The position numbers and the translations under genes were made by a program. Below the pieces are notes generated by a model. It did no database searches. It had not been told where the DNA came from and saw only the letters and a list, made by a program, of their open reading frames with translations. From Sphingobacteriaceae bacterium (GTDB taxonomy: Bacteria; Bacteroidota; Bacteroidia; UBA7662), in assembly GCA_030682795.1 (NCBI GenBank), contig JAUXNJ010000047.1, forward strand, positions 248,001 through 312,000: a DNA stretch of 64,000 nt, in the 5' to 3' direction. This document shows positions 5,745-16,520 of this stretch, piece by piece. Each line of letters starts with the position of its first letter. Position 1 is the stretch's first letter.

Positions 5745-7061
5745 ATGAAAAAACTGTTCTTGTTGTTAGCCATCGGGTTGAGCACCCAACTGGCGACGGC
5801 ACAAAACAAAATCGAATTCGAGAAATACGAATTAAAGAATGGCATGCGCGTCATCCTGCATGAAGACAAAAGCACGCCGATTGTAGCAGTAACCATTTCT
5901 TACCACGTTGGAAGCAAAAATGAGCATCCTGACCGCACTGGTTTTGCCCACTTTTTTGAGCATTTATTATTCGAAGGCAGTGAAAACATCGCCCGCGGCG
6001 AATACATGAAGCTGGTGAAGGTAAATGGCGGTGTATTAAATGCCAACACCAATTATGAGCGCACTTTCTATTTCGAAATTCTCCCTTCTAACCAATTGGA
6101 AATGGGTTTATGGATGGAAAGTGAGCGCTTGGTTCATGCCAAAATCGAAGACATTGGCATTGAAACCCAGCGAGAGGTAGTAAAGGAAGAACGCAGACAG
6201 CGCTACGACAATACGCCATACGGCGGTTTGCTCGATGAAACCATGAAGCGAACCTTTAAGGTGCACCCTTACGGTCGCAGTATCATTGGTTCGATGGACC
6301 ATTTGAACTCTGCCAAGCGGGATGAGTTTTATGACTTCTACCGTACCTTTTACGTGCCAGAAAATGCCATTTTGAGCATTGCCGGCGATATCAATAAAAA
6401 AGAAACCAAAGCCTGGATTGAAAAATATTTTGGCTCCATCCCTAGAGGCGGCAAGCCCATTCCGCGTCCAACGGTGCAAGAACCCGTGCAAACAGCCGAA
6501 GTTCGAGACACGGTTTACGACAACATCCAACTGCCAGCTGTGATTCACAGCTACAAAATTCCAGCTTTGGGCAGTGCCGACTATTACGCCTTGAACATGC
6601 TCACCAATTTATTGTCGCAAGGACAAAGCAGTCGTTTTCAAAAGAGCATTGTAGATGAGCAGCAAAAAGGCCTTTTTGTAGGTGCCTTTCCGCTGGCGTT
6701 GGAAGATGCTGGAACCGCTATCATGTTTGGTATTGTGAATATGGGTGTGAGTCCGCAAGAATTAGAAAATGCGATGATTGCGGAATACAACAAGGTAAAG
6801 GCCGATTTGATTTCTGAGACTGAGTTTCAAAAATTGCTCAATCAGGTTGAAAACGATTTTGTAAACGAAAATGCTAGCGTTCAGGGTATAGCAGAAAATC
6901 TTTCTGATTATTGGATGTTTCAAGGCGATCCAAATTTGATCAATACCGAAATCGAACGTTACAGAAAAGTAACTCGTGAAGACATCCGTCGCGTTGCCCA
7001 GAAATACCTGATTGATAGCAACCGGGTAGCCATTTATTACCTTCCTAAATCAGCCCAATAA
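5745..7061 (+). CDS. M16-family zinc peptidase, catalytic subunit
   Basis: The 438-residue protein has a signal peptide (KKLFLLLAIGLSTQLATAQ, about residues 1-20), so it should act in the periplasm. The inverted zinc motif HFFEH (His69, Glu72, His73) is intact, and the third ligand is expected in the ETQREVVKEERR helix about 76 residues later, as in pitrilysin-type enzymes. A C-terminal M16C domain follows. The next gene, 8 bases downstream, encodes a partner without HxxEH; such pairs form heterodimeric peptidases in many Bacteroidota. The substrate is unknown; misfolded or signal peptides in the periplasm are the usual guess for the family. Confidence 0.93.
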   Translation: MKKLFLLLAIGLSTQLATAQNKIEFEKYELKNGMRVILHEDKSTPIVAVTISYHVGSKNEHPDRTGFAHFFEHLLFEGSENIARGEYMKLVKVNGGVLNANTNYERTFYFEILPSNQLEMGLWMESERLVHAKIEDIGIETQREVVKEERRQRYDNTPYGGLLDETMKRTFKVHPYGRSIIGSMDHLNSAKRDEFYDFYRTFYVPENAILSIAGDINKKETKAWIEKYFGSIPRGGKPIPRPTVQEPVQTAEVRDTVYDNIQLPAVIHSYKIPALGSADYYALNMLTNLLSQGQSSRFQKSIVDEQQKGLFVGAFPLALEDAGTAIMFGIVNMGVSPQELENAMIAEYNKVKADLISETEFQKLLNQVENDFVNENASVQGIAENLSDYWMFQGDPNLINTEIERYRKVTREDIRRVAQKYLIDSNRVAIYYLPKSAQ

Positions 7062-7069
7062 TTTAAGCC

Positions 7070-9148
7070 ATGAAAAAAATACTCCTATTTATACTAGCCT
7101 TGGGCTTTGGATTACAAGCCAGCGCCCAATTAGATCGAAGCCAGCGCCCGAAACCCGGTCCGGCTCCTGAAATCCGTTTAAACGATCCTGCTACCTTTAC
7201 CCTTCCCAATGGATTGAAAGTATTTGTAGTGCAAAACAACAAATTGCCGCGCCTAAGCGTGTCGCTTGTTTTAGACGTAGATCCGGTGATGGAAGGAGAC
7301 GCTGTGGGTTATGTGGAAATCATGGGAGACCTCATGCGCACGGGTACCAAATCAAAGTCCAAGGCCGAAATCGATGCCTTTATCGACCAAATAGGTGCCT
7401 CGGTAAGCACTTCAGCAACTGGTCTCAATGCCTCTTCTTTGTCGAAGCATAAAACCAAACTGTTTGATATTTTGAGCGAATTGGTTCTGGAAACAGAATT
7501 TCGCCAAGAAGAATTGGATCGCATCAAAAAACAATACATTTCAAATTTGCAGACTGAAAAAGACGATGCGAATGCGATTGCCAATAAGGTGCGTAGCGCT
7601 CTGCTGTTTGGGAAATCCCACCCCTATGGTCAAATCACAACCGAAAAAACCATAGAACAAGTGAATTTAGCGTTGTGTCGCAAACATTTTGACACCTACT
7701 ACAAGCCCAACGTAGGCTATTTAGCACTCGTTGGAGATATTACTGTAGCAGAAGCTCGTCAATTAGTAGAAAAAGCCTTTGGTAGCTGGAAAAGCGCTGA
7801 AGTGCCACGTCATCAATATGCCATGCCACAGCCTCCAGCTCAAACGCGGGTGATTGTGGTAGATCGCCCTGTTGCCGTACAAACCGTCATCAACATTGCG
7901 CATCCGGTTGACCTCAAGCCGGGCTCGGCAGATGCCATTAAAGCCAGCGTCATGAACACCATTTTAGGTGGAGGCGATGCACGTTTGTTCAATAACTTGA
8001 GAGAGACCTACGGCTTTACGTATGGCGCTTACTCTAGCTTAAGCCGCAACAGACTTGTGGGGTCCTTTAATGCCAACGCTCAGGTGCGTAGCGCGGTAAC
8101 AGACAGCTCAGTGATGATGTTCTTGTACGAACTCAACCGCATTCGCGACACCATGGCGGATGTATCTGAGGTGGACGGCATTTTAAAGTATCTCAACGGA
8201 ACTTTTGCGATTGGACTTCAGAATCCGCAAACCATTGCCAATTTCGCTATTGAAATTGAGCGCTACAATTTACCGAAAGACTACTACCGCAATTATTTAA
8301 AAAATTTGGCGGCCATCACCCCTGCCGATGTTCAAAAAACTGCGCAGAAGTATGTATTGCCGGCACAAGCCTACATCATTTGTGTAGGTAATAAATCCGC
8401 CATTGCAGAGGGCCTTGCCAAATATGCCGCTTCAGGAAAAGTGGAGTTTTTTGACATGTTCGGCAACGAGGTTAAAGAAGCCCCCATGCCTTTACCAGCT
8501 GGTTTGACTGCTGAAAAGGTGATAGAAAACTACATCGCTGCAATAGGTGGACGTAAAAACTGGTCGAAAGTTAAAAACATTGACATGACTATGGGAGCTA
8601 CTGTTCAAAACATGACTCTGAACATGCAAATGAAAAAGATGCAACCAAACATGGTGATTAATGAAATCACCTTGAATGGTGCCATGACCATGCAAAAAAT
8701 AGTTTTCGATGGCGAAAAAGGCAAGGCTTCTGGAATGCAAGGAAGCAAGGCTTTAGAGGGCGAGAAATTAGCTGAAATCAAAGAAAGCGCTGCCATTTTA
8801 CCTGAGCTAAATTATTTGACCGGCAGCACAAAATTGGTCCTAGTGGGCATTGAAAAAATAAATGATCAACCCGCTTACTTGATTTCCGTTGTTAGTCCTT
8901 CTGGAAAAAAAACCATGGAATACTATGATATCAAAACAAGCTTCAAAGTGCGTGAAGTAAGTACGGTGGACGGGCCGCAAGGCGAGGCTTCTCAAATTAC
9001 TGATATAAGCGACTATAGAAATGTTAAGCCTGGCATTTTAATTCCACATACCACAACTTTGGATATGGGCGCTCAGTTAATTAAACTAGAAATGAAATCA
9101 CTTACCATCAATGGCAAGATGAAAAAATCTGATTTCGCAGTAAATTAA
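7070..9148 (+). CDS. M16-family peptidase partner with C-terminal lipoprotein-sorting-like domain
   Basis: This 692-residue secreted protein has a signal peptide at about residues 1-19 (ending ALGFGLQASAQ). Residues of about 25-450 are a two-part M16 fold, but the zinc motif is missing: GYVEIMGDLMRTG stands where HxxEH would be. It is therefore the non-catalytic subunit of the heterodimer with the preceding gene. About residues 475-692 form an extra domain (ENYIAAIGG..., several strands, a hydrophobic sheet) that resembles the LolA/LolB-like lipoprotein-sorting fold often called an outer-membrane lipoprotein-sorting domain. The fusion adds about 200 residues beyond ordinary M16 partners. A bidirectional terminator follows. 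Confidence 0.9.
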   Translation: MKKILLFILALGFGLQASAQLDRSQRPKPGPAPEIRLNDPATFTLPNGLKVFVVQNNKLPRLSVSLVLDVDPVMEGDAVGYVEIMGDLMRTGTKSKSKAEIDAFIDQIGASVSTSATGLNASSLSKHKTKLFDILSELVLETEFRQEELDRIKKQYISNLQTEKDDANAIANKVRSALLFGKSHPYGQITTEKTIEQVNLALCRKHFDTYYKPNVGYLALVGDITVAEARQLVEKAFGSWKSAEVPRHQYAMPQPPAQTRVIVVDRPVAVQTVINIAHPVDLKPGSADAIKASVMNTILGGGDARLFNNLRETYGFTYGAYSSLSRNRLVGSFNANAQVRSAVTDSSVMMFLYELNRIRDTMADVSEVDGILKYLNGTFAIGLQNPQTIANFAIEIERYNLPKDYYRNYLKNLAAITPADVQKTAQKYVLPAQAYIICVGNKSAIAEGLAKYAASGKVEFFDMFGNEVKEAPMPLPAGLTAEKVIENYIAAIGGRKNWSKVKNIDMTMGATVQNMTLNMQMKKMQPNMVINEITLNGAMTMQKIVFDGEKGKASGMQGSKALEGEKLAEIKESAAILPELNYLTGSTKLVLVGIEKINDQPAYLISVVSPSGKKTMEYYDIKTSFKVREVSTVDGPQGEASQITDISDYRNVKPGILIPHTTTLDMGAQLIKLEMKSLTINGKMKKSDFAVN

Positions 9149-11577: not shown

Positions 11578-12333
11578 TTATTCTACCCAAATATCAACAT
11601 AAGACATGGTATTGATGGGCTCATCGTCATTTACTTCGGGAAACTGACGTACCACTAACGCTTTTGAACTATCTCTTATTGCCGGAGCATAATTGACGGC
11701 ACCCAAATAAAGTGCAGTTTCACTCAAATAAAATCTAGCTTCCTCTATTGTTAGACCCACCAAGTTTGGCACATTTACCAATGAATCCACATTGTAAATG
11801 CCCACGACCAAGTCTACGATACTGCCTTTTGGTACCTCCTTGCCTGGATACACCTTGCTCCCATTCATCATCATTTCGAGAATAACATTATTGGCAATAT
11901 CAGGGCGCATAATCAGGTTACCGACTCCTAATCCGAGATTTTTCAAGTCAATGGTAGCTTTTCTGAGACTCAAATCAATAAGGTCGGGCAGCTTTACTTT
12001 GGGCGTATTTGAGGCAGTGATCGATAAATATATGGTCCGACCCTCTTTTACCTTGCTCCCTGGCTTAGGATCTTGTCCATATACTAACATAGGTGGCTTT
12101 CCTTGTAAATAGGTCGAGTCAATCACCATGTATTTAAGGTCATTCTCGGCCAAAAGTTGTTCCAATTGGTTGATATGTAAATCAGTCAAATCAGGCACCT
12201 CAATTTCTTGACCATGATTGGTGTAAAATTTCATGTATTGAACTAGTCCAACAATTAACACAACCGTTAGGCCTAGGATAAAGCCCAACTGAACCAAAAA
12301 GGTCTTTGATTTGATAAACTTAATGAAGCTCAT
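11578..12333 (-). CDS. Membrane-anchored triple-PASTA protein
   Basis: The 251-residue protein has a cytoplasmic stub, one transmembrane helix (about residues 12-32, LVQLGFILGLTVVLIVGLVQYM) and three PASTA modules facing the periplasm at about 40-105, 112-180 and 183-251. The module starts (EIEVPDLTDLHINQLEQLL, KVKLPDLIDLSLRKATIDLKN, LVNVPNLVGLTIEEARFYL) are regular. PASTA domains bind peptidoglycan fragments or help position cell-wall enzymes; in Gram-positives they sit on PknB kinases and PBP2x. Here there is no kinase or transpeptidase domain. The ATG overlaps the ddl stop by 4 bp, which ties it to peptidoglycan precursor synthesis. It may be a wall-sensing or scaffold protein. Confidence 0.93.
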   Translation of the reverse strand: MSFIKFIKSKTFLVQLGFILGLTVVLIVGLVQYMKFYTNHGQEIEVPDLTDLHINQLEQLLAENDLKYMVIDSTYLQGKPPMLVYGQDPKPGSKVKEGRTIYLSITASNTPKVKLPDLIDLSLRKATIDLKNLGLGVGNLIMRPDIANNVILEMMMNGSKVYPGKEVPKGSIVDLVVGIYNVDSLVNVPNLVGLTIEEARFYLSETALYLGAVNYAPAIRDSSKALVVRQFPEVNDDEPINTMSYVDIWVE

Positions 12334-15002
12334 GCGTAGGTTTTTTGGGTGCGTCCGTATGCCAATATCTGATCAATAAATTCATAAGGCTTGTAGCCAT
12401 TAATGGCACACTGGTGAAAAATGCAAGTTGCAGGCGTCATGCCTGGTAAAGAATTGATTTCAATGATGTAAACTTCGATTTTATTCAAATCGTATATCTT
12501 CACAAAAGCATCGATGCGACAATAGCCTTCCACATTCAAAATTCGGGCGGCGCGTTCAAGCTCTTTTTTTACAAAAGCACTTACCACTTCGCTATCGGCT
12601 TTGTTATCGGTATACCTGGCGGGCGTAATGTTCAATCCCTCACCTGCTAAAAACTTCTCTTCTAATGATAACACCTCGCCTTCTGCCAAACTTTCAGAGG
12701 GTTCAAACATCTCGTAAATGATCTCTCCCGCTGCATTGCGATGGGTTAATAGCCCCCCAGTTACTTCCAGAAAAAATGTTGCATCGCCTTTTTCAATGAA
12801 GGATTCTACCAAAAAGACTGGCTTTTGGGGAAATTCTTCTTTCAACTTTAGCTTTAATACCGCTGCTGGTTCAGGCAATAATTCCTCCTGATCGCGATAA
12901 ATCAAGGCGGCATAGGCCAAGAGTTCCTCCTTATTCTTCAGTTTTTTTACGGCTGAGGAACAACCATCATCCACCGGTTTGGCAATAATGGGGAAAGCAA
13001 ATTTCTCCACAATGTGCGCCACCAGGGCCTCATGCGAAGGGAAATCGCCCTCACGCACCAGCATGTGCCGAGCCACCAACATACCGTTATTGGCCAGCAA
13101 TTCATTGGTTTCGTATTTATTGATGGTGATGGCGCTCGAACTGGGCTTTGAGCCGTTGTAGGTAAGACCCACTTTTTCGAGCTCGCCTTGCAAGGTGCCA
13201 TCTTCGCCTGGTCGTCCATGTAAGGCAATAAAAACCTCGTCTACCTGGGCGGCTAACTCTTCGAAACTCAAGCGCCGCGGCTTTAACAGTGCATTAAAAG
13301 CAAACAAATCAGTAATATCCTTACACTGCTCTTGGATGGTAGCAATGAGGGGATGCACTTGAAAATGTGCAATTTTCGCTGCAATATCATCGGCATTGTC
13401 CTTCAAATGAAGGTTAATGGGGATGGCATACAACTCAAAATGAGCCGCATTACCGGTTAAAAACACACTGATGGGCTCATATTCGACCGAAGAGCTCAGT
13501 TTTTCAAAGATGTTTCGACCAGATTCTACCGAAATATGGCGTTCGCTCGAGTAGCCACCCATAATAACGGCCACTTTGCGCTTATTCCCGGCAGCTTTTT
13601 GCTCTTGCTTCAGGGCTAAATCGAGTTGCGATAACAAAAAACCAATTGGCATTCCTTTTTTAGCCCTTTGTCGCAAAGAAGTACGAATGATATAGGTCAA
13701 AAACTGACTCGGATTTAAACCAATTTCTGCCGCTTGGTGGAAAAAAAAGGACGACGGCATCATGCCTGAAGTAGTATTGGGGTCATTCAATAATACCCGT
13801 CCGTTTTTTGTAAAAAAGCCATCAATTCGCGCATACACGTCAAATCCAAAAGCGTGAAATAGCTTTTCGGCCGCGCTGCGGATATGTTGAATGTCAGATG
13901 CAGCTAAATCAATAGGCGTTACTTTGCGCGACAAGCCAGGTAGGTACTTAGAACGATAATCGAATAGCTCCTTCCCTTTCACAATGCCCGTTGGTGGTAA
14001 GGCTACCGCACTGCCATCTTCTTGCTGAATTACAATACAGGAAAACTCATCACCTTCGATGAAGGCCTCAAATAATAAAGTATGTTCCCCATCAAGGGCT
14101 TCTAAACTAACACTTTGGTGCTTTTCAACAAGCTGTTGATTCAGCACCTTTAACAGTTCTTCTGGATGGTAAATTATTTCGCCAGCATTCAAACGCGCAG
14201 GTAAGCCAATGTTTGATCGGATATCGGAAAATTCCCTTACAAAACGAATGCGCGCATCCGCATCTAAAGCACCCCAAAAGGCGCCGGTGAGGGTGCTTCT
14301 AAACAGTGATTTATCGACTGCTTGTTGGAAGGCCTCAAAATTATTTTCATGTAAAATAGAAATACCAATAGAACTGCCCTGATTGGCGGCTTTCACCACA
14401 AAAGGAAGTCCGATTTGCTGCTTCAAACCCTCAAAATAGGCCTGCTGCTCTGCTACGGAAAACGACAACCAGCTGTTTCGATCCAGGACCTTGAAACTCG
14501 GCACTTCCATATTAGCAGCACTCATGAGGTGTTTTTGAGCTGCTTTATCCATACCAAAAGCCGATGCCCAAATGCCTGAACCAGAATAGGGAATGCCTTG
14601 CCACTCCAATAAACCTTGCAAACGGCCATCTTCCCCATTTTTGCCATGCAAGGCCAAAAAAGCAAAGTCGATGTGTGCTTTGAGCGCTTCCGCCTTTACC
14701 GGCTGCCCCAATTCGGCCAGCATCTCGAGTTGTGCAGCTGGCTCTAGATCGCCCAAATGTTCGGCATATACCTGAAAATGATTGGGCGAGGGCTGTAAGG
14801 CACTCACTGGCGGGTAAAAATCACGAATAGAGCCCTTGTACAGGTATTGCCAATCTAAAATCACAAAATTGCCAAAGCTGTCCACGAAAATCGGCACGGC
14901 GGTAAAAAGCGCCTTGTTCAAATTGTCGTATACAGTGCGGCCACCCGCAAACGAAACCTCCCTTTCGCGAGAATTGCCTCCAAAAAAAATGCCTACGCGC
15001 AT
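12330..15002 (-). CDS. ddl: Tandem two-module D-alanine-D-alanine ligase
   Basis: At 890 residues this is more than twice the usual Ddl (about 300-370). Two complete ATP-grasp ligase modules lie in series. Module 1 (about 1-455) has GGNSREREVSF, HGKNGEDGRLQG, VVKAANQGSSIG, Lys352-Tyr353 and the metal-binding DPN at 407-409. Module 2 (about 475-890) has GGYSSERHIS, HGRPGEDGTLQG, KPVDDGCSS, Lys783-Phe784 and a canonical EINSLPGMT with Glu848 and Asn850. A short charged linker joins them. Ddl condenses two D-Ala molecules with ATP for the peptidoglycan stem peptide. Both modules keep ATP and metal residues, but each departs from consensus: module 1 has Asp for the metal Glu, and module 2 has Phe for the substrate-controlling Tyr. 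The frame is open throughout, so this is a true fusion. It is co-transcribed with the PASTA gene. Confidence 0.92.
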   Translation of the reverse strand: MRVGIFFGGNSREREVSFAGGRTVYDNLNKALFTAVPIFVDSFGNFVILDWQYLYKGSIRDFYPPVSALQPSPNHFQVYAEHLGDLEPAAQLEMLAELGQPVKAEALKAHIDFAFLALHGKNGEDGRLQGLLEWQGIPYSGSGIWASAFGMDKAAQKHLMSAANMEVPSFKVLDRNSWLSFSVAEQQAYFEGLKQQIGLPFVVKAANQGSSIGISILHENNFEAFQQAVDKSLFRSTLTGAFWGALDADARIRFVREFSDIRSNIGLPARLNAGEIIYHPEELLKVLNQQLVEKHQSVSLEALDGEHTLLFEAFIEGDEFSCIVIQQEDGSAVALPPTGIVKGKELFDYRSKYLPGLSRKVTPIDLAASDIQHIRSAAEKLFHAFGFDVYARIDGFFTKNGRVLLNDPNTTSGMMPSSFFFHQAAEIGLNPSQFLTYIIRTSLRQRAKKGMPIGFLLSQLDLALKQEQKAAGNKRKVAVIMGGYSSERHISVESGRNIFEKLSSSVEYEPISVFLTGNAAHFELYAIPINLHLKDNADDIAAKIAHFQVHPLIATIQEQCKDITDLFAFNALLKPRRLSFEELAAQVDEVFIALHGRPGEDGTLQGELEKVGLTYNGSKPSSSAITINKYETNELLANNGMLVARHMLVREGDFPSHEALVAHIVEKFAFPIIAKPVDDGCSSAVKKLKNKEELLAYAALIYRDQEELLPEPAAVLKLKLKEEFPQKPVFLVESFIEKGDATFFLEVTGGLLTHRNAAGEIIYEMFEPSESLAEGEVLSLEEKFLAGEGLNITPARYTDNKADSEVVSAFVKKELERAARILNVEGYCRIDAFVKIYDLNKIEVYIIEINSLPGMTPATCIFHQCAINGYKPYEFIDQILAYGRTQKTYA

Positions 15003-15085: not shown

Positions 15086-15478
<393 letters not shown>

Positions 15479-15509
15479 TCAAACGCTTACGCACCCAAAA
15501 TTTTACGGT

Positions 15510-16520
15510 TTGCAATCACAAATACAAGCATTAAAGCAATTTTCAGAGCTGCTTAGTTCCAAAAGTCGGGCAAGTGACTTTAAAGAAGTGTGTCAATTGG
15601 CTATCCAGCAAAATCCCTGGTTCACCGAAGCGAGCATCCAGGCGGCCATTCAGGCCTGGGAACATGCTTTACAACCGGCTTCCATCGAAAAATGGTTGGG
15701 CGCTTACAGTGCTGTTAGCAACCAAAAACGAGTGGGACTCATTTTAGCGGGGAACATCCCGCTGGTAGGATTGCATGATTTGATTTGTGTATTGGTTAGC
15801 GGCCATAAAGCGGTGGTCAAAACCGCCTCCGACGACAGCATCCTCATGCGTTGGGTAGTGGCTTTATTACAGCAAGCCCATCTCGCTTGGGAAAGTCAAA
15901 TCGAATTCACAGAAAAAATGACGGGCATCGATGCCATCATCGCCACAGGTAGCAACAACAGCAGCCGGTATTTTGAATACTATTTCAAAGATATCCCGCA
16001 TATCATCCGCAAAAACCGAAATTCAGTGGCCGTTTTAACGGGAACCGAAAACGACGAAACCCTGATGGAGCTTGGCAAAGATGTATTCGACTATTTTGGC
16101 TTAGGTTGCAGAAATGTAAGCAAAGTATACCTGCCAGTTGCAGCCGACCCAACCCGTTTGCTGCAAGTTTGGGAGCCCTACCGTGCCAATCTATTATCGC
16201 ACAACCGTTACTTCAATAATTTTGAGTATCACTTGGCGCTGCTCATGGTAAATCGCGTAAAGCACTATACCAACAATGCACTCATCTTATTAGAATCGGA
16301 GCAAATTGCCTCCCCTGTGAGTATGCTTCACTTTGAATTTTATTCGGATGTAGCAGCGCTGGAGCAACAACTTGCTGCGCAGCGCGACCAAATTCAATGT
16401 GTACTCGCTATGAATGGTCACTTCAAGGGCAGTTTGCCTTTTGGACAAAGCCAGCAACCCGAACTTTGGGATTACGCCGACGGAATCGACAGCCTCGCCT
16501 TTTTAACGCAACAGGTTTAG
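15510..16520 (+). CDS. Acyl-CoA reductase (LuxC-like)
   Basis: The protein has 336 residues from a TTG start at 15510, chosen because LQSQIQALKQFSELL is what the N terminus of Bacteroidota family members looks like. An in-frame GTG at 15438 is the alternative, and the first ATG (15366) lies inside the divergent ferredoxin gene. The fold resembles aldehyde dehydrogenases: VGLILAGNIPLVGLHDLICVLVSGHKAVVK is the nucleotide-binding region, and the conserved GLGCRNVSKVYLP holds the probable nucleophilic cysteine. LuxC-type enzymes reduce activated fatty acyl groups to aldehydes, but the cellular role of this family in Bacteroidota is not established. The ferredoxin next door is its standard neighbour. 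The stop overlaps the convergent desulfurase stop. Confidence 0.85.
   Translation: MQSQIQALKQFSELLSSKSRASDFKEVCQLAIQQNPWFTEASIQAAIQAWEHALQPASIEKWLGAYSAVSNQKRVGLILAGNIPLVGLHDLICVLVSGHKAVVKTASDDSILMRWVVALLQQAHLAWESQIEFTEKMTGIDAIIATGSNNSSRYFEYYFKDIPHIIRKNRNSVAVLTGTENDETLMELGKDVFDYFGLGCRNVSKVYLPVAADPTRLLQVWEPYRANLLSHNRYFNNFEYHLALLMVNRVKHYTNNALILLESEQIASPVSMLHFEFYSDVAALEQQLAAQRDQIQCVLAMNGHFKGSLPFGQSQQPELWDYADGIDSLAFLTQQV

Follow-up and report, generated by a model that had tools for sequence, protein, structure and literature searches.

A double Ddl with two unlike halves in one chain

In the stretch of 64,000 nucleotides analyzed here (hereafter designated the window; contig JAUXNJ010000047.1 of a Sphingobacteriaceae bacterium), we found that the D-alanine-D-alanine ligase (Ddl) is encoded as a single chain of 890 residues, in which two Ddl halves with different active sites are covalently joined (hereafter designated the double Ddl). 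Ddl, an essential enzyme familiar from textbooks and targeted by the drug D-cycloserine, has been described as a single-module, recurrently homodimeric protein. Much of the Bacteroidia, a major class of bacteria, depends on two unlike Ddl halves that are covalently joined. From the data described below, we propose with moderate confidence that, after one ancient duplication and fusion, the N-terminal half (N half) would have remained the housekeeping ligase and the C-terminal half (C half) would have become a respecialized, ATP-competent partner.

The double Ddl gene occupies positions 12330–15002 of the minus strand, starts with ATG, and contains no internal stop codons; the plus strand over the same positions is not open and is full of stops. 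Thus, the open frame reported in the initial annotation of the window, which was made from the letters alone and gave no strand, is real. Pfam matched Dala_Dala_lig_N twice in the chain and Dala_Dala_lig_C in several places, as pieces of two such domains. Taken alone, the N half (residues 1–455; 13638–15002, minus strand) scored 89.4 and 108.5 bits and the C half (residues 475–890; 12333–13580, minus strand) 77.0 and 66.7 bits, in both cases above the cut-offs of PF01820 and PF07478, and the module boundaries of the initial annotation (about 1–455 and 475–890) were right. The linker (residues 456–474; 13581–13637, minus strand) lies within one long helix (residues 454–473) predicted by AlphaFold2, which modeled the whole chain with a mean predicted local distance difference test score (pLDDT) of 87.6 and a predicted template modeling score of 0.88. 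The closest solved structures are DdlA chains (3i12). The whole chain also scored above the cut-off of general Ddl models of NCBIfam, and no double-form model was present among the 25 best-scoring ones.

Purifying selection acts strongly on both halves, about equally by the one pair of genes below saturation. The ratio of nonsynonymous to synonymous substitution rates (dN/dS) was about 0.05 in each half for this pair (L013/L015), and about 0.04 in the N half and 0.025 in the C half between the window and L010, where dS is near saturation. The chance that the double frame is an assembly or frame artefact is practically negligible: nothing speaks for it except that the assembly is a draft (47 contigs), whereas the full-length double frame recurs in tens of independent genomes, and the double in hundreds of genomes overall, isolates included, with purifying selection on both halves, and the whole chain folds in AlphaFold2. 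We therefore ruled out this explanation.

The source genome (3.14 Mb) is 100% complete. A search of it with PF07478 returned the double Ddl together with matches resembling other ATP-grasp enzymes in frame length and in their lower scores, and the more specific PF01820 returned the double Ddl gene alone. The second, free-standing ddl that the initial annotation had proposed to look for was thus not found by either search. The double Ddl is the only Ddl of the genome and hence would be needed for the pentapeptide.

Distribution of the double Ddl in Bacteroidia

A database search for the tandem architecture and its spread, as suggested in the initial annotation, revealed that full-length doubles are widespread in the class and absent from the other classes sampled. 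Among 60 relatives, 57 gave matches, mostly full-length doubles; the double form was the rule in the order of the window and was shared, at 48–61% identity, by numerous families elsewhere in the class, and the remaining genomes carried one ordinary Ddl of about 330–380 residues. In a sample of 246 genomes spread evenly over the class, 111 (about 45%) matched at an E value of 1e-30 or better. These fell into 37 family codes, of which one (f88) has a truncated form, leaving some 36 families, and a few are represented by fragments at contig edges. No double was found in the 89 genomes of other classes in the phylum sample, all of which had single Ddls, and no genome among the 60 relatives or in the phylum sample combined a double with a free-standing Ddl. 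At least 543 encoded relatives were confirmed. Named carriers include isolates of Hymenobacter, Pontibacter, Adhaeribacter, and Rufibacter, in addition to many metagenome bins, whose names are in part unreliable (one labeled Chitinophaga pinensis equals G001). These results do not support the view of the arrangement as an oddity; across much of the class, the double is the ordinary, and only, Ddl. In many Bacteroidota of water and soil, no other enzyme is thus available to make the D-Ala-D-Ala terminus of the cell-wall peptide. A contig labeled Candidatus Saccharibacteria (L105) also carried a double Ddl typical of Bacteroidia (58% identity) and is probably mis-binned.

Two different active sites

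In Ddl, Glu15, Ser150, and Tyr216 form a hydrogen-bonded triad, Ser281 binds the second D-Ala, and Glu270 and Asn272 hold Mg. Glu15 and Arg255 touch a substrate analogue (PMC5717164). We aligned 108 doubles to Escherichia coli DdlB, whose numbering is used hereafter; at least five of these rows represent the same gene fetched twice. A further 20 doubles, picked mainly as the most divergent (most of them 41–56% identical), brought the total to 128 rows.

The N half retained Glu15, His63, Lys97, Ser150, Glu180, Glu187, Lys215, Tyr216, Arg255, Asp257, Asn272, and Ser281 in 108/108 rows and Lys144 in 107/108, so that its catalytic triad (E13, S210, and Y353 of the window protein) is intact throughout. 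It differed from DdlB in every row by Asp for Glu270, Pro for Ala271, Ser for Pro275, and Phe for Leu282. The first and third of these changes correspond to D407 and S412 in the metal/acceptor loop LNDPNTTSGMMPSSFFFHQA (residues 405–424; 13731–13790, minus strand), where they are invariant in doubles. The C half, conversely, retained Glu15, His63, Lys97, Lys144, Glu180, Glu187, Lys215, Arg255, Asp257, Glu270, and Asn272 in 108/108 rows, its ATP/Mg residues in the window protein (K629, K675, K783, R829, D831, E848, and N850, within 12333–13580, minus strand) being intact. Its triad was changed to Glu-Cys-Phe in all 108 rows by replacement of Ser150 and Tyr216 (E487-C681-F784), Ser281 was likewise replaced by Thr (T859), and Tyr210-Asp211-Tyr212 had become Leu-Ser-Leu (with one Ile) in all rows. 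As for the metal ligands Asp257, Glu270, and Asn272, the C half has all three, whereas the N half combines Asp257 and Asn272 with Asp for Glu270 in all doubles and in all 30 f88 proteins.

The same signatures, that is, Asp270 and Ser275 in the N half and Cys150, Phe216, and Thr281 in the C half, were present in 20/20 of the most divergent doubles, among which Phe282 and Met/Leu278 of the N half varied slightly. Single Ddls had Ser150 in 33/33 and Tyr216 in 32/33 cases; Cys150 was found in none of these 33, as compared with 128/128 C halves, so that an active site of the Glu-Cys-Phe type is without parallel among the single Ddls compared. The halves also differ in the spacing between DdlB residue 154 and Glu180, which is 93–122 residues in the N half, 26–29 in single Ddls, and exactly 22 in the C half. 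The excess in the N half is due to an N-half-specific insertion of about 70 residues in the ATP-grasp domain (about 232–300; 14103–14309, minus strand), which is retained in f88.

On these residues, it is the N half that would qualify the whole protein as a Ddl; with a Glu-Cys-Phe triad, the C half does not warrant the name of D-Ala-D-Ala ligase. The initial annotation, in which each half was described as a complete module with catalytic motifs of its own, was too simple in this respect, two of three triad residues being lost from the C half and a metal ligand and the acceptor loop being altered in the N half. Its suggestion of a division of labor is plausible, since each half has its own conserved signature; of the options that it listed, different substrates and one half kept for binding would both fit the sequence. 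It is unlikely, by comparison, that D-Ala-D-Ala is made by both halves, in which case the fusion would do no more than tie together the usual homodimer, and the changes in the C half would be neutral for specificity. Ddl enzymes indeed have a recurrent dimer arrangement (PMC6899670), and a crystal structure of the Y216F variant of E. coli DdlB contains ADP together with a phosphorylated inhibitor (PDB 1iow), which indicates that Phe216 permits substrate binding. The two halves of one protein, however, share only about 25% identity on average, as against 58% among orthologous N halves and 61% among orthologous C halves, and the fixation of Cys150 in C halves only, like that of differing signatures in general, would not be expected of redundant copies. 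The Y216F variant of DdlB reportedly retains ligase activity.

In one double (L159:3613–6618; G275), about 30 residues, NEELKIENSSAAAETPGTEHQALSTKHQAPST, are inserted in frame just upstream of the N-half metal loop; the insert resembles a translated interspersed repeat within an essential gene.

A family with a truncated C half

The truncated family f88 was sampled by 41 genomes from 30 genera, and every one of them matched only residues 1 to about 553–594 of the double. The f88 proteins (L173–L202, and also L157:4478–6151 and L158:4508–6226) have 544–614 residues, comprising the N half and a tail that is homologous to the first 96–122 of the 423 positions of a C-half profile (best E value, 1.5e-22). 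The tail was recognized in 24/30 proteins at an E value of 0.0014 or better, whereas shuffled controls gave values above 1, and in the AlphaFold2 model of one protein it formed a folded domain with a block pLDDT of 91–97. The tail corresponds to the preATP-grasp domain, which in the window protein spans residues 475–598 (13209–13580, minus strand); most of this domain, namely the first 96–122 residues, is all that is left of the C half, its ATP-grasp part being gone. The tail may be a degenerating preATP-grasp domain, and f88 a natural intermediate between the double and single forms.

No other Ddl was found with PF01820 in the five f88 genomes tested. Asp270 was kept in 30/30 f88 proteins, indicating that an N half with Asp270 can serve as the only Ddl. 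Pro275 (30/30), Ser278 (30/30), and Leu282 (25/30) were canonical in f88, and Ser275 is thus found only beside a complete C half. The family grouped with Hymenobacteraceae in the N-half tree, both before and after masking of the loop (support 93/96 and 81/75, respectively), and in the RpoB tree it grouped with f46, a Hymenobacter-like family; from this relationship, we guess that f88 is a family of Cytophagales. The favored history is loss of the C module followed by a return to Pro275, as judged from these trees.

Lacking the catalytic part of one half, f88 constitutes a natural experiment, and it bears on a possible though doubtful alternative, namely that the C half is regulatory, binding ATP and D-Ala or D-Ala-D-Ala without bond formation and tuning the N half via the shared interface. 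This role would fit the replacement of two of three triad residues in every copy, as well as the loss of the ATP-grasp part from f88 with retention of the first domain. Moreover, Ser275 and Met/Leu278 of the N half occur only alongside a complete C half, which suggests physical coupling. On the other hand, this loop correlation amounts to one evolutionary event, and the ATP/Mg residues and the oxyanion residue Arg255 are invariant in all 108 C halves, although in pure sensors part of this set is usually lost.

Comparison with known systems

The double Ddl resembles DdlA and DdlB (PF01820 and PF07478) in fold, domain order, and nearly all ATP/Mg residues of both halves, and shares with single Ddls of the class its position beside a PASTA-domain gene. 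It differs from DdlA and DdlB in having two modules per chain, in the N half by the inserted segment of some 70 residues and the replacement of Glu270 by Asp and of Pro275 by Ser, and in the C half by Cys150, Phe216, and Thr281. The D-Ala-D-Lac and D-Ala-D-Ser ligases LmDdl2, VanA, VanC, and VanG are likewise Ddl paralogues with an altered second-substrate site; unlike the double, they are single-module proteins, and the double lies far below their curated cut-offs, no Van-type NCBIfam model scoring above its cut-off. Tyr216 is replaced by Phe in LmDdl2 and by His in VanA, and to our knowledge all of these D-Ala-D-Lac and D-Ala-D-Ser ligases keep Ser150.

It is very unlikely that the C half is a D-Ala-D-hydroxyacid ligase (for example, for D-lactate), as in lactic acid bacteria. 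The replacement of Tyr216 by Phe784 in the C half (108/108) is compatible with such a function, since Tyr216Phe occurs in the D-Ala-D-Lac ligase of Leuconostoc; the one single Ddl with Phe216 is presumably that of Latilactobacillus (L153), if the expectation for lactobacilli holds. We know of no counterpart of Ser150Cys in depsipeptide ligases, however, and neither vanH nor vanX was seen among the conserved neighbors of doubles. That the C half belongs to the D-Ala-D-Lac ligases was rejected on the score with the equivalog model NF000206, which was 181 bits against a cut-off of 550.

In the MurC-Ddl fusion of the Chlamydia type (NF011171), a Ddl is also embedded in a longer cell-wall chain, but its partner is MurC and not a second Ddl; the double reached 174 bits against a cut-off of 1015, and Pfam found no Mur ligase domain in it. 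Another likeness, in concept only, is to the large subunit of carbamoyl phosphate synthetase (CarB), in which two ATP-grasp halves of one chain do different work; CarB belongs to another ATP-grasp family, and no carbamoyl phosphate synthetase domain was matched in the double by Pfam. In a 2025 phylogeny of ATP-grasp enzymes, CarB alone is named as a protein with two ATP-grasp domains (PMC11915815). By analogy, the two halves of the double might depend on each other, such that the overall reaction, or two linked ones (for example, with a further step on D-Ala-D-Ala), needs both, because each half has lost a different part of the active site (the metal ligand and acceptor loop in the N half, the Ser-Tyr relay in the C half). 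The occurrence of canonical Pro275 in the N-half loop only in the family without the C-half ATP-grasp domain also bears on this reading, which we regard as rather improbable.

The double Ddl was not described in the full-text literature searched, most subscription journals being outside it, and within this scope the statement in the initial annotation that no description was known was borne out. The nearest papers treat other Ddls (PMC4814524, PMC6899670, PMC5717164, and PMC11915815). The initial annotation had also envisaged that the double might be the ordinary, already characterized Ddl of its group; it is ordinary within the group and apparently uncharacterized.

Proposed roles of the two halves

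Returning to the preferred reading of a housekeeping N half and a respecialized C half, one old duplication and fusion would have turned the housekeeping Ddl of the lineage into a covalent pair of unlike halves. The N half would phosphorylate D-Ala and join a second D-Ala to it, thus supplying D-Ala-D-Ala, as suggested by the survival of the whole family f88 on an N half plus one C-half domain. Because all of its ATP/Mg residues are invariant, the C half presumably still binds, and probably uses, ATP, and would bind Mg and a D-amino acid. As a respecialized half-site, it would differ in how it treats the second substrate or deprotonates it, because the proton-relay triad is now Glu-Cys-Phe and the Ser binding the second D-Ala is now Thr. 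It may act on a different second substrate, or join D-amino acids under some condition only, its product being the least certain step of this explanation. In addition, the C half probably serves the N half as a fixed partner, given the recurrent dimer in which Ddl subunits associate (PMC6899670).

Several points weigh against this proposal. The ligase role of either half is predicted from sequence, and a new product, regulation, and mutual dependence would all fit that sequence. The loss of the catalytic part of the C half in f88 also fits a regulatory or redundant role, and f88 is no clean deletion experiment, because its N half differs from that of doubles at the acceptor loop. Furthermore, Pro275 never having changed in f88 was not rejected as an alternative to reversion (approximately unbiased test, p 0.197), and the f88 case is a single event. 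The cultured hosts (Hymenobacter, Pontibacter, Adhaeribacter, and Rufibacter) make the role of the C half directly testable.

Origin of the double Ddl and its locus

In the phylogenetic tree, all N halves formed one clade (support 100/99) and all C halves another (100/100), on long stems of 1.6 and 2.2 changes per site, respectively, which indicates that duplication and fusion occurred once, long ago. The two clades grouped together with support of 94/88, where long branches meet. A fusion of DdlA-type and DdlB-type source genes found no support in this grouping, although the very long stems weaken the tree. Single Ddls of the class share a mean identity of 38%. In the RpoB tree, doubles were scattered through the class with single-Ddl families in between, which would reflect either many replacements or some transfer. 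Single, double, and truncated Ddls were also observed within one well-supported RpoB clade (f17, f46, and f88; loci L203–L232), suggesting that the locus was reshaped repeatedly among close relatives.

A PASTA-domain gene recognized by Pfam (11578–12333, minus strand) overlaps the stop of the double Ddl gene by four bases (ATGA). It adjoins doubles and 13/20 of the fetched single Ddls of the class, and since this neighbor is common to doubles and most single Ddls, the double gene lies at the ancestral locus of ddl. Because binding to cell-wall peptides is a property of PASTA domains elsewhere among bacteria, a functional link between the PASTA protein and Ddl is possible. The conserved surroundings of doubles further include genes for a secreted protein and an RluA-type pseudouridine synthase, with a nucleotide pyrophosphatase-like gene or a phosphoglycerate kinase gene upstream (identities assigned by eye from the sequence). 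Elsewhere in the window, an open reading frame of 384 residues without a Pfam match was found at 15366–16520 (plus strand), and two neighboring M16 peptidase genes of 438 and 692 residues were found at 5745–7061 and 7070–9148 (plus strand).

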